Source: Candidatus Polarisedimenticolia bacterium
Lineage (GTDB): Bacteria > Acidobacteriota > Polarisedimenticolia > Gp22-AA2 > AA152
Assembly: GCA_035764505.1 (NCBI GenBank)
Contig: DASTZC010000201.1
Location: 1-32,173 of the forward strand
Reading direction: 5' to 3'
DNA: 32,173 bases
Shown here: positions 19,158 to 28,697 of the stretch, one piece after another
Numbering within the stretch: the stretch's first letter is position 1
How the letters are laid out: each line of letters opens with the position of its first letter
The notes under the pieces: model-generated
Database searches by the model: none
What the model saw: only the letters and a program-made list of their open reading frames with translations
Told to the model about the DNA's origin: nothing
Made by a program: the position numbers and the translations under genes

Positions 19158-25018
<5,861 letters not shown>

Positions 25019-25128
25019 GCCGACGCGCTCGGCCAAAATGACGGCGCTCCATCATCAATCGTTCCGAACCCTGCCGCTAACCCATCGTATAAGGAAGCAG
25101 TTGAATAAGAAATGCCCCGCAGGGCGCG
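25019..25128 (+). promoter_or_regulatory. Candidate activator-binding region upstream of the sigma-54 promoter
   Basis: The 110 bases between the regulator stop and the sigma-54 promoter contain several short inverted repeats. These are GCCGA-N5-TCGGC (25019-25033), GTTC-C-GAAC (25061-25069), and GCCC-CGCA-GGGC directly before the promoter. The middle part (25085-25112) is AT-rich for this genome. Enhancer-binding proteins usually bind dyads about 80-150 bases upstream of a sigma-54 promoter, so the first two are placed suitably. None can be assigned to a protein from sequence alone. Confidence 0.35.
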
Positions 25129-25144
25129 TGGCACGCTCATTGCT
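25129..25144 (+). promoter_or_regulatory. Sigma-54 (RpoN) promoter
   Basis: TGGCACG (25129-25135), four bases, then TTGCT (25140-25144) matches the -24/-12 consensus TGGCACG-N4-TTGCW in every defined base. The GG and GC dinucleotides are at the required distance. Transcription would start near 25155, leaving about 18 bases before the receiver gene, enough for its GGAG ribosome binding site. It follows a gene for a sigma-54 activator, which strengthens the call. Confidence 0.88.
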
Positions 25145-25172
25145 CTATGGGTGTTCCCCGATGGAGCCTGAG

Positions 25173-25586
25173 ATGCCTGGACGAATCCTGATCGTTGACG
25201 ATGATGCCGCGGCGCGGGAGTGCTACGGGCGGCTGTTCCGGCGGAATGGCTATGAGCCCTGTCTCGCGGCGAGCGGCGCCTGGGTGGAAGCCAACCCGGA
25301 GATGCTCTCGGAAGTCGAGGTCGTCCTTCTCGATCTTCGGATGCCCGGAATGAGTGGGCTGGAGCTTCTCTCCCGTCTGCGCCGCAGGGGCTTCGCCGGC
25401 CTCGCCATTCTGGTGACGGCCCATGCCGAAGCGGAAATTTCGCACGAGGCCAAGCGGTTGGGAGTTAGACGGGTATTCAATAAACCAGTGCAAAGCGCCG
25501 CCCTGCTGGAAGCGGTGGCGGAGGCTTTCACCCGCACAAGGAGGAAGGCGGAAGAGGTGAGTAGCCCTTCGGAAGCCTTGACCTAA
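25173..25586 (+). CDS. Receiver-only response regulator
   Basis: This 137-residue protein is a single CheY-like receiver with no output domain. Landmarks are the acidic cluster VDDD (8-11), phospho-acceptor Asp54 in VVLLDLRMPGMSG, Thr82 in ILVTAHAE and Lys104 in VFNKPV. A short polar tail (about 120-137) follows. Such proteins act as phosphate sinks, phosphorelay intermediates or partners of other proteins; which applies here cannot be told. I chose the ATG at 25173 because GGAG precedes it by six bases. An ATG at 25161 would add four residues (MEPE) and has no site. It is preceded by the sigma-54 promoter, so its expression probably depends on a phosphorylated NtrC-family activator, plausibly the one encoded just upstream. 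Confidence 0.88.
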   Translation: MPGRILIVDDDAAARECYGRLFRRNGYEPCLAASGAWVEANPEMLSEVEVVLLDLRMPGMSGLELLSRLRRRGFAGLAILVTAHAEAEISHEAKRLGVRRVFNKPVQSAALLEAVAEAFTRTRRKAEEVSSPSEALT

Positions 25587-25606
25587 GCCATGATGGAACC
25601 TATACT
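25578..25606 (+). promoter_or_regulatory. Sigma-70 promoter of htrA
   Basis: TTGACC (25578-25583) and TATACT (25601-25606) are separated by the optimal 17 bases. The -35 abuts the receiver gene's TAA stop (25584-25586). Transcription would begin near 25613, about 43 bases before the htrA ATG. This supports the later of the possible htrA starts, since an in-frame ATG at 25590 would lie upstream of the transcript. Confidence 0.75.
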
Positions 25607-25655: not shown

Positions 25656-27188
25656 ATGAAAAAGCACGCACAGCTTATGGTCCTCACCATGATCGCCGGC
25701 GTATCCATCCTCTTCGGGATGGTCCTGGCTTCCGGAGTCAAGCTGACTCCGCCTTCCCTGGCAGATTCGGGCATGGCTCAAGCCGCGCTGCGGCAGGCCT
25801 CCAACAGCGATTCCAGCCGGCCCGGATATCCCTCCTTTGCCGACATCGTGGAGAAGGCCAACCCGGCGGTGGTCAGCATCATCTCCACCGAAATGGTGGA
25901 GCCGGGACAGGGCGGCCCCAACTTCCATGGTCCCTTCGAGTTCTTCTTCGGCCCGAACGGTCCGGAGCGGCGCAAGGGCGGCGGTGCCGAGCCGCGCCGC
26001 GAGGATTCAGGAGGCTCGGGCTTCATCATCAGCGAGGACGGCTACATCCTGACCAACAACCACGTCATCGAGGGGGCGGACAAGATCCGCGTGAGCCTCG
26101 AGGACGACGACAACGAGTACAAGGCGGAGGTGGTGGGGACCGATCCGAGCACCGACCTCGCCCTCATCAAGATCACCTCCGACCGCAAGCTGCCGACCGT
26201 GCCGCTGGGCGACTCCGACGGGCTGCGGGTGGGCGAGTGGGTCATCGCCGTGGGCAACCCCTATTACTACGAGCACACCGTCACCGTGGGCGTGGTCTCC
26301 GCCAAGGGGCGCAAGCTGGGAGAGATTTCCAAGGATCCTTCCCTCGACGAGTTCATCCAGACCGACGCCGCCATCAACTTCGGCAACAGCGGCGGCCCGC
26401 TGCTCAACGTGAATGGCGAGGTGATCGGCGTCAACAGCGCGATCTCAAGCGTCGGGCAGGGGATCGGCTTCGCGGTGCCGATCAACCTGGCCAAGAACAT
26501 CCTGCCGCAGCTCAAGGCGACGGGCCACGTGCAGCGCGGCTATCTCGGCATCCGCCTGCGCAACGTCAACACCGACCTCAAGGACGCCTTCAGCCTGAAG
26601 GACACCAAGGGGGCGCTGGTGGAGGATGTCGAGAAGGGGCTGCCCGGTGATCGCGCCGGATTGAAGCCCGGCGATGTCATCGTGGCGGTGGACGGCAAGA
26701 ACATCGCGAACATGGACGAGCTGGTGAAGATCATCTCCGCCCGGGAGCCGGGCAGCCGCGCCAAGCTGAGCGTGATGCGCGAGGGCAAGCCGGTGGTCCT
26801 GACGGCCCGCCTCGAGGACCGCGGACAGTACCTCAACGCCAAGAAGGCCTCCTCCTCACCGGATGAGGAGCGCGAGCCGGAGGCGGAAGGAGAGCGCCGG
26901 CTCGGGATCACCGTCGACAACCTGACTCAGTCGATTCGCCGGCAGCTGGATCTCGACGACTCGGTGAGCGGCGTGGTGGTTACCGAGGTCTCGCAGAGCA
27001 GCGAAGCCTTCGAGCAGGGCGTGAGCCGCGGCCAGGTCATCACTTCGGTGAATCGCGTCCCGGTCACCTCGCTGTCGGAGTTCCGCCGCGAGATGGCGAA
27101 GGTGCGGCCAGGCTCGAAGGTGCTGTTCCGCATCTTCAGCCCCACCAGCGACGGCTGGCGGTTCGTGGTCATCCGTAACGAGGAGTAG
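25656..27188 (+). CDS. HtrA/DegP-type periplasmic serine endoprotease with two PDZ domains
   Basis: HtrA proteases degrade or refold damaged envelope proteins. The 510-residue protein has an N-terminal hydrophobic export or anchor segment (about 7-27). A trypsin-like domain (about 60-285) follows, with catalytic His136 (LTNNHVIEG), Asp167 (STDLALIK) and Ser245 (NFGNSGGPL). PDZ1 (about 294-385) has RGYLGIRL and GDRAGLKPGDVIVAVDG, and PDZ2 (about 415-500) has RRLGITV and QGVSRGQVITSVN. A charged linker, rich in Glu and Ser, lies between the PDZ domains (395-413). The ATG 25656-25658 is preceded by GAGGAG at a slightly long distance of 11 bases and by its own sigma-70 promoter. Read-through from the sigma-54 promoter upstream is also possible, as no terminator separates them. 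Confidence 0.94.
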   Translation: MKKHAQLMVLTMIAGVSILFGMVLASGVKLTPPSLADSGMAQAALRQASNSDSSRPGYPSFADIVEKANPAVVSIISTEMVEPGQGGPNFHGPFEFFFGPNGPERRKGGGAEPRREDSGGSGFIISEDGYILTNNHVIEGADKIRVSLEDDDNEYKAEVVGTDPSTDLALIKITSDRKLPTVPLGDSDGLRVGEWVIAVGNPYYYEHTVTVGVVSAKGRKLGEISKDPSLDEFIQTDAAINFGNSGGPLLNVNGEVIGVNSAISSVGQGIGFAVPINLAKNILPQLKATGHVQRGYLGIRLRNVNTDLKDAFSLKDTKGALVEDVEKGLPGDRAGLKPGDVIVAVDGKNIANMDELVKIISAREPGSRAKLSVMREGKPVVLTARLEDRGQYLNAKKASSSPDEEREPEAEGERRLGITVDNLTQSIRRQLDLDDSVSGVVVTEVSQSSEAFEQGVSRGQVITSVNRVPVTSLSEFRREMAKVRPGSKVLFRIFSPTSDGWRFVVIRNEE

Positions 27189-27293: not shown

Positions 27294-28697
27294 ATGAAGC
27301 CGAAGATCCTGGTCATCGACGACGAGGAAGACATCCGGAAGTCGCTCCGGATGATCCTGGAATACGAGAATTACCAGTGCCTCACCGCCGCCACCCCGCA
27401 CGAAGGGCTGGAGGTGGCGCGCCGCGACGACCCCGACGTCATTCTGCTGGACATCAAGATGCCCGGGCTGGACGGGCTGGAAGTGCTGCAGCGCCTGAAG
27501 GAGCGCGGTGATCGCTCCGAGGTGGTCATGGTCTCGGGCCATGGCACCATCGCCACCGCCGTCGAGGCCAGCCGCAAGGGGGCTTTCGACTTCCTGGAGA
27601 AGCCGCTCGAGGAAGGACGGGTCCTGACTTCCATCCGCAACGCCCTCAAGCAGCGCAGGCTGGTGGAGGAGAACCGCGTCCTGAAGGAAGAGCGCGGCAG
27701 CCGCTTCGAGCTTATCGGCGGCTCGGCGGCGCTGCAGACGGTACGTGCCGCGGTAGAGAAGGCCGCGCCGACGCAAGCCACCGTGCTGATCCGCGGCGAG
27801 AGCGGCACGGGCAAGGAGATGGTGGCCTGGGAGATCTATCGCCGCAGCCTGCGCAAAGACGCTTCCTTCGTGAAGGTCAACTGCGCGGCCATTCCGGAGG
27901 AGCTGATCGAAAGCGAGCTGTTCGGCCACGAGAAGGGGGCCTTCACCGGCGCGGTCGGGCGGCAGACCGGCAAGTTCGTGCAGGCCGACGGCGGGACGAT
28001 CTTCCTCGACGAGATTGGCGACATGAGCGCCCGCACCCAGGCCAAGGTGCTGCGGGTCCTGCAGGACGGCGAGGTGGAGCCGGTGGGCATGCCCAAGACG
28101 CTGCACGTCGACGTGCGCGTCCTGGCGGCGACCAACAAGGACCTCGAGGCGGAGATCCGCGCCGGCCGCTTCCGCGAGGACCTCTACTTCCGTATCAACA
28201 CGCTGATCATCCCGATCCCGCCGCTGCGCGAGCGGCGCGGCGACATCCCGAAGCTGATCGAATACTTCTCGGCGCGCTTCTCGGAGGAGAACAACCGCCG
28301 GCCGAAGTTGTTCGACCCCGAGGCGCTGAAGGAGCTGGGGGCGCTTCCCTGGCGGGGCAACGTGCGCGAGCTCAAGAGCGCCGTCGAGCGGCTGCTCATC
28401 ATGGCCGAGGGGGAGACGATCACGCTGGAGGACCTGGCGTGGCTGCGCGGCGGCCGCATGGCCCCCGCGGGCGCCGCACCGGCGCAGTACCACACGCTGC
28501 AGGAATTCAAGGACGCCGCCGAGCGGCAGTTCCTGGTGGAGAAGCTCCGGGAGTTCGACTGGAACATCTCCGCCACCGCCAAGGCCATCGACACGCCGCG
28601 CAGCAACCTCTACAAGAAGCTGGAGCAGTACGGACTGAGCAAGCACGCCACCTCCGGCGCCGCGGCGGAGTCCCCGGCGGAACCGGCGGCCGAGTAG
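27294..28697 (+). CDS. NtrC-family sigma-54-dependent response regulator, NtrX-like
   Basis: The 467-residue regulator has a receiver (about 3-120, phospho-acceptor Asp53 in VILLDIKMPGLDG, Lys103). Its AAA+ domain (about 138-372) has Walker A GESGTGKE (168-175), GAFTGA (215-220) and Walker B TIFLDEIGD (235-243). The C-terminal part is FKDAAERQFLVEKLREF...NISATAKAIDTPRSNLYKKLEQYG (405-447), which I recognise as the NtrX-like type of Fis helix-turn-helix; the assignment to NtrX itself is tentative. No kinase gene is adjacent. The ATG at 27294 is used because earlier in-frame codons lie inside the terminator hairpin. The stop is eight bases before the thiolase GTG, so the regulator and the beta-oxidation genes are probably co-transcribed. 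Confidence 0.93.
   Translation: MKPKILVIDDEEDIRKSLRMILEYENYQCLTAATPHEGLEVARRDDPDVILLDIKMPGLDGLEVLQRLKERGDRSEVVMVSGHGTIATAVEASRKGAFDFLEKPLEEGRVLTSIRNALKQRRLVEENRVLKEERGSRFELIGGSAALQTVRAAVEKAAPTQATVLIRGESGTGKEMVAWEIYRRSLRKDASFVKVNCAAIPEELIESELFGHEKGAFTGAVGRQTGKFVQADGGTIFLDEIGDMSARTQAKVLRVLQDGEVEPVGMPKTLHVDVRVLAATNKDLEAEIRAGRFREDLYFRINTLIIPIPPLRERRGDIPKLIEYFSARFSEENNRRPKLFDPEALKELGALPWRGNVRELKSAVERLLIMAEGETITLEDLAWLRGGRMAPAGAAPAQYHTLQEFKDAAERQFLVEKLREFDWNISATAKAIDTPRSNLYKKLEQYGLSKHATSGAAAESPAEPAAE

Follow-up and report, generated by a model that had tools for sequence, protein, structure and literature searches.

The stretch of DNA analysed here, which we call the window (32,173 nucleotides from Candidatus Polarisedimenticolia bacterium, Acidobacteriota), raises the question of whether a short gene for a stand-alone receiver protein, REC, is expressed from a sigma-54 promoter under the control of the neighbouring NtrC-type activator, NtrC1, and what such a receiver might do once it is made. 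We addressed this question by comparing the locus with its counterparts in related genomes and by examining the residues of the encoded proteins; the features concerned are collected in the table.

Table. Features of the receiver locus, in window coordinates
Feature	Position	Strand	Basis or remark
HK, HisKA/HATPase_c sensor histidine kinase	19158..20648	+	Pfam HisKA, HATPase_c
NtrC1, response regulator, proposed activator of the promoter	23645..25018	+	Pfam Response_reg, Sigma54_activat, HTH_8
Candidate NtrC1 upstream activating site, CGGCCAAAATGACGG	25030..25044	+	Consensus GCGYCA-N3-TGRCGC, comparison of 19 genomes
Predicted sigma-54 promoter TGGCACG-CTCA-TTGCT (-24/-12), TGGCACGCTCATTGCT	25129-25144	+	Consensus match and conservation
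REC, stand-alone receiver, 137 aa	25173..25586	+	Pfam Response_reg
Sigma-70-like promoter TTGACC-N17-TATACT for the HtrA gene	25578..25606	+	Overlaps the end of REC
HtrA/DegP-type Do family serine endopeptidase	25656..27188	+	NCBIfam TIGR02037, 462 bits, above cut-off
NtrC2, second receiver-AAA+-Fis activator	27294..28697	+	Pfam; class-level synteny with REC and HtrA

The predicted promoter between NtrC1 and REC

The preliminary description of this DNA had reported a match to the RpoN consensus about 110 bases after the NtrC-family gene, and both statements were borne out: the site TGGCACG-N4-TTGCT is a perfect match to the -24/-12 consensus TGGCACG-N4-TTGCW and begins 110 bp after the NtrC1 stop. 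Given the GG at 25130-25131 and the GC at 25142-25143, the usual -24/-12 numbering places the predicted transcription start near 25155. This is about 11 nt past the end of the motif, with the first base of the REC ATG 29 nt past that end, so that the figure of 18-20 bases given earlier for the distance to the transcript start region was imprecise. Within the window alone, the occurrence of one perfect match is moderately rare (0.55 matches are expected with one mismatch allowed), and a pattern search of the whole 4.46 Mb genome, which encodes RpoN, returned six matches to the strict motif against one for the reversed control.

The decisive evidence is comparative. REC orthologs were located in relatives, nearly all of them represented by metagenome assemblies, and the surrounding regions were compared. 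Among order-level relatives, TGGCAC-N5-TTGC[AT] stands ahead of REC in G000-G005, G007, G010 and G011, TGGCATGACCCTTGCT ahead of REC in G008 and TGGCACACCGCTTGCT ahead of the REC candidate in G006, while G009 yielded no REC above the threshold; the -24 and -12 elements are fixed and separated by five bases that vary freely. At the level of the class, a C/A-GGCACR-N4-TTGC variant precedes REC in six genomes, namely CGGCACG-N4-TTGC[CG] in G024, G026, G028, G030 and G038 and AGGCACA-N4-TTGCT in G034, with a weaker site, CGGCCCG-N4-TTGCA, in G021. The loss of the motif from relatives that keep both genes, which the preliminary description had proposed as a check, was thus not seen in any order-level genome in which REC was found; at class level the motif persists in weaker form, and in G016 and G032 a search upstream of REC found no convincing promoter. 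When scored against dinucleotide-preserving shuffles of each intergenic stretch, the sites reached p ≤ 0.001 in 10 of the 10 order-level genomes tested and p values of 0.001-0.012 in seven class-level genomes; all 19 genomes combined (G006 and G009 left out) give p of about 1e-28. The promoter weights behind these scores are approximate, being set by the published consensus and not fitted to these genomes. Because position and bases are conserved in relatives while the spacer varies, we consider it highly probable that the promoter is real, and a chance match as the origin of the motif is rejected on the same comparison.

The start of REC is preceded by GGAG at 25163-25166, ahead of the ATG at 25173, and an in-frame alternative ATG at 25161 would give a protein of 141 aa. 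If transcription is taken to start 26 nt downstream of the motif's first base, the predicted leader measures 2-7 nt in 13 of 18 genomes, and this leads us to predict near-leaderless translation of REC in most of the class. Leaders of 14-25 nt with Shine-Dalgarno-like bases are predicted for the window and its family, and for G008, in which REC would start with GTG, the leader is about 20 nt long. The start codons are supported in the class genomes by REC N-termini of the MTP/MSP type directly past the promoter.

Proposed activator, kinase and target of the promoter

NtrC1 has the architecture of the NtrC family, with a receiver, a sigma-54 AAA+ domain bearing GSFTGA and a Fis-type HTH. The G[AS]FTGA loop and the phospho-Asp are present in 19 of 19 orthologs and the Walker A motif GxSGTGK in 18 of 19. 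The kinase HK carries an N-terminal hydrophobic stretch and an HEIRNPL phospho-acceptor box, the latter found in 18 of 19 HK orthologs, the remaining one being truncated. The gene order HK-LigA-(AI-2E transporter)-NtrC1-REC-HtrA-NtrC2-thiolase-FadB holds throughout the class, with exceptions at contig ends and a degree of variation in the flanks; the block is also found at L084, a locus of CP011806 'Acidobacteria bacterium Mor1', and this assigns the group to Acidobacteriota.

Within this syntenic block, a dyad as well as the promoter is placed between NtrC1 and REC. The dyad, GCGYCA-N3-TGRCGC, lies just past the NtrC1 stop in most of the 19 genomes compared, with its centre 47-230 bp upstream of the promoter. 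It is complete (12/12) in G004, G007, G008, G010 and G024 and matches at 10-11 of 12 positions in 11 further genomes, so that 16 of 19 reach 10-12/12; because the genomes scored are also those from which the consensus was derived, the combined p is partly circular. The dyads of G026 and G038 (the latter 8/12) are weak, G016 reaches 9/12, and the copy in the window is likewise weak (9/12; p = 0.24 when taken singly). A search of the window's own intergenic region for direct or inverted repeats gave nothing convincing, and the dyad emerged only by comparison. It is plausible that the dyad is the binding site of NtrC1.

As a query for a wider regulon in 10 genomes, the composite of dyad and promoter recovered the REC locus in 8 of them; its other matches were few and near the control rate, and no clear second target appeared. 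The dyad alone proved too degenerate, with many other matches. In G004, G007, G008 and G010, none of the other matches listed had the A/T-only centre of the dyad at the REC promoter. A perfect dyad upstream of rpoN was rejected as a target, as it falls inside an open reading frame that runs on the same strand as rpoN.

Natural contrast loci were sought by searching the genome collection with NtrC1. At 11 acidobacterial NtrC1 loci (L085, L086, L088-L094, L098, L100), neither REC nor the dyad nor the promoter was found behind NtrC1. At the six of these with 4.7-7 kb of upstream sequence (L086, L090, L091, L092, L094, L098), some of which differ in context and may be non-orthologous, HK was not found. 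On account of the synteny and this joint absence, HK, promoter and REC appear to form a unit whose members are largely present together, and HK is counted into the circuit because it was not found upstream of NtrC1 at related loci without REC and the promoter. At L085, L086, L088, L089, L091-L094, L098 and L100, an open frame of about 71-76 aa follows next after NtrC1, which in many loci reads MELPxxVLIHNxLxGLKG...

The simplest reading of these data is that the sigma-54 promoter is controlled by NtrC1, and a circuit of HK, NtrC1, promoter and REC is well supported. The circuit put forward earlier is upheld as far as the promoter, the adjacent NtrC-type activator with its conserved dyad and intact G[AS]FTGA loop, and the nearby HK are concerned; its other part, that REC drains phosphate from the kinase of NtrC1 or passes the signal on, is tentative, and the sequence does not point to a shared kinase, since the first helix of REC differs and its receiver identity to NtrC1 is only about 27%. 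We infer from sequence the kinase of NtrC1, the action of NtrC1 rather than of another activator at the promoter, and the role and partners of REC. In the mechanism we propose, the membrane-associated HisKA kinase HK would phosphorylate NtrC1, which in its phosphorylated form would bind the dyad that follows closely on its own gene and use the G[AS]FTGA loop of its AAA+ domain to open RpoN-RNA polymerase at the -24/-12 promoter. The promoter would then yield a short-leader mRNA for REC, a phosphorylatable protein that might thus act as a second tier of signalling, synthesised only while the first is switched on.

Two other accounts of the promoter have to be weighed against this, and we regard both as unlikely. 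The genome encodes further sigma-54 activators, among them NtrC2, which lies two genes away with the same degree of synteny and whose AAA+ domain is intact, and NtrC2 or an unlinked activator might drive the promoter with NtrC1 as a mere neighbour; the position of the dyad directly behind the NtrC1 gene, and the nearly invariant Fis-type HTH of NtrC1, as would be expected for a protein that recognises one conserved site, speak against this. The promoter might also mainly serve HtrA by read-through, with REC as a small first cistron. In most genomes no more than about 100 bp separate the REC stop from the HtrA start, which would suit such an arrangement, as would L087 (L087:1130-1500), in which dyad and sigma-54 motif are kept and only a C-terminal fragment of REC, the product of decay or of an assembly fault, remains ahead of HtrA. 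Yet the gap reaches up to 490 bp, the spacing between promoter and REC is narrow in most genomes, and a sigma-70-like element ending in TATACT precedes HtrA in 10 of 10 order-level genomes, although no such element stands out at class level. Because HtrA has this promoter of its own, REC is probably the main product of the sigma-54 promoter, and HtrA as its sole target is rejected. In the NtrC1-driven circuit, HtrA would be transcribed from its housekeeping promoter and may receive read-through in addition.

The receiver and its possible roles

REC consists of a receiver domain only (Response_reg, 74 bits, residues 5-115, no other Pfam domain), and the catalytic residues D10, D11, D54, T82 and K104 are kept in its 19 orthologs, with T or S at position 82, as in a phosphorylatable single-domain response regulator. 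The α1 docking helix, AVLxxYxRLLRRxG in REC versus egNRxxxxxALxKxG in NtrC1, is also unlike that of NtrC2, and the mean receiver identities are 27% to NtrC1 and 28% to NtrC2; as the docking helix differs, the kinase of REC need not be HK. At D+2 the protein has R or K and at T+2 mostly an aromatic residue or Leu, and such pairs, of which the K/Y of Spo0F is an example, go with slow dephosphorylation. Around the conserved T, the FATG motif is missing from the REC orthologs, which read L-[IV]-[TS]-A, so that REC falls outside the FATGUY hub receivers of the MrrA type.

All 19 REC orthologs have V, I or T at the position of Y/T coupling (K-3), versus Y or F in NtrC1 and F in 16 of 17 NtrC2 proteins; 86% of receivers carry Tyr or Phe there (PMC12632262). 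The missing aromatic side chain speaks against an output surface of the canonical kind and would fit a role in phosphotransfer or as a scaffold. Taken together, we favour, with good though not full confidence, a local sigma-54 two-component module running from HK through NtrC1 to REC, in which REC would hold or shuttle phosphoryl groups, whether in a relay, as a hub or by feeding back on a kinase with a delay, rather than present a Y/T-coupled output face.

How REC might do so can be pictured in two ways that we consider about equally likely, neither of them more than tentative. With HK or a number of kinases as its source, REC might hand phosphate on to a different pathway, for which NtrC2 and the envelope function of HtrA are possible candidates. 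Such a role would fit the lost coupling residue, a loss shared with the hub receiver MrrA (PMC5964349), the conserved order REC-HtrA-NtrC2 and the presence of Spo0F among the best solved-structure matches of REC by sequence; against it, no HPt protein or partner kinase was identified, the FATGUY signature is absent, and the likeness to Spo0F is what any receiver would show. Competition of REC with NtrC1 for the same kinase is also possible: HK would phosphorylate REC and so drain NtrC1~P, in negative feedback. Single-domain receiver sinks are known, such as LovR (PMC5964349), and REC has the residues for phosphorylation, would be made under the same regulator and is found together with HK. The unlike docking helix and low identity to NtrC1 count against this, and the D+2 and T+2 residues poorly suit a fast sink. 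More ambitious, and in our judgement improbable, is the idea of a class-wide acidobacterial two-tier cascade, headed by a dedicated kinase-NtrC pair, with REC as the only conserved detectable sigma-54 target, translated from near-leaderless mRNA and passing phosphate to NtrC2 or other kinases.

Comparison with known systems

Locally acting NtrC-family systems of the same build, with kinase, regulator, binding site, -24/-12 promoter and neighbouring target, are known from Desulfovibrio vulgaris, and PMC4641369 lists GSFTGA activators of Desulfovibrio with assigned sigma-54 targets. In the excerpts of PMC4641369 and PMC3333781, the targets are mostly concerned with transport, metabolism, flagella, stress or non-coding RNA, whereas here the conserved target is a receiver-only protein. 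MrrA and the alphaproteobacterial hub receivers resemble REC as receiver-only, phosphorylatable proteins without the usual Y/T-coupling residue, but they possess the FATGUY signature that REC lacks, and a sigma-54 promoter is predicted for REC while none was looked for with the MrrA type (PMC5964349). VemR of Xanthomonas is likewise receiver-only and functionally tied to a sigma-54 system through FleQ, and an interaction with RpoN2 is reported in work cited by PMC9923393. The link reported for VemR is one of protein interaction, whereas that of REC would be transcription from a predicted sigma-54 promoter (PMC9923393). With Spo0F, REC shares the stand-alone receiver, a generic similarity, but unlike Spo0F it has no phosphorelay partner in view. 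One search of an open-access library for sigma-54 enhancer-binding proteins of Acidobacteriota found nothing related. The novelty is the arrangement, not any single part: a sigma-54 regulator with a bare receiver as its conserved neighbouring target is unusual and suggests a two-tier signalling design, by feedback or relay, that can be tested, and for Acidobacteriota it supplies a specific promoter together with a candidate binding site and a definite set of proteins.

Other sequences related to sigma-54 were noted alongside this locus. In G000, besides an intact rpoN on C94, a second RpoN-like sequence (C217:1326-2117; L002, L003) appears as a two-piece match inside one open frame of 836 aa. 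In the same genome, another perfect sigma-54 motif lies directly 5' of a gene for a NarL/LuxR-type response regulator (L005:1501-2196). Perfect motifs also stand ahead of genes whose products begin with signal-peptide-like sequences, MRRNVLL... and MRKNFLV... (L004:1501-1600 and L009:1501-1600), and these genes possibly represent a further sigma-54 group.
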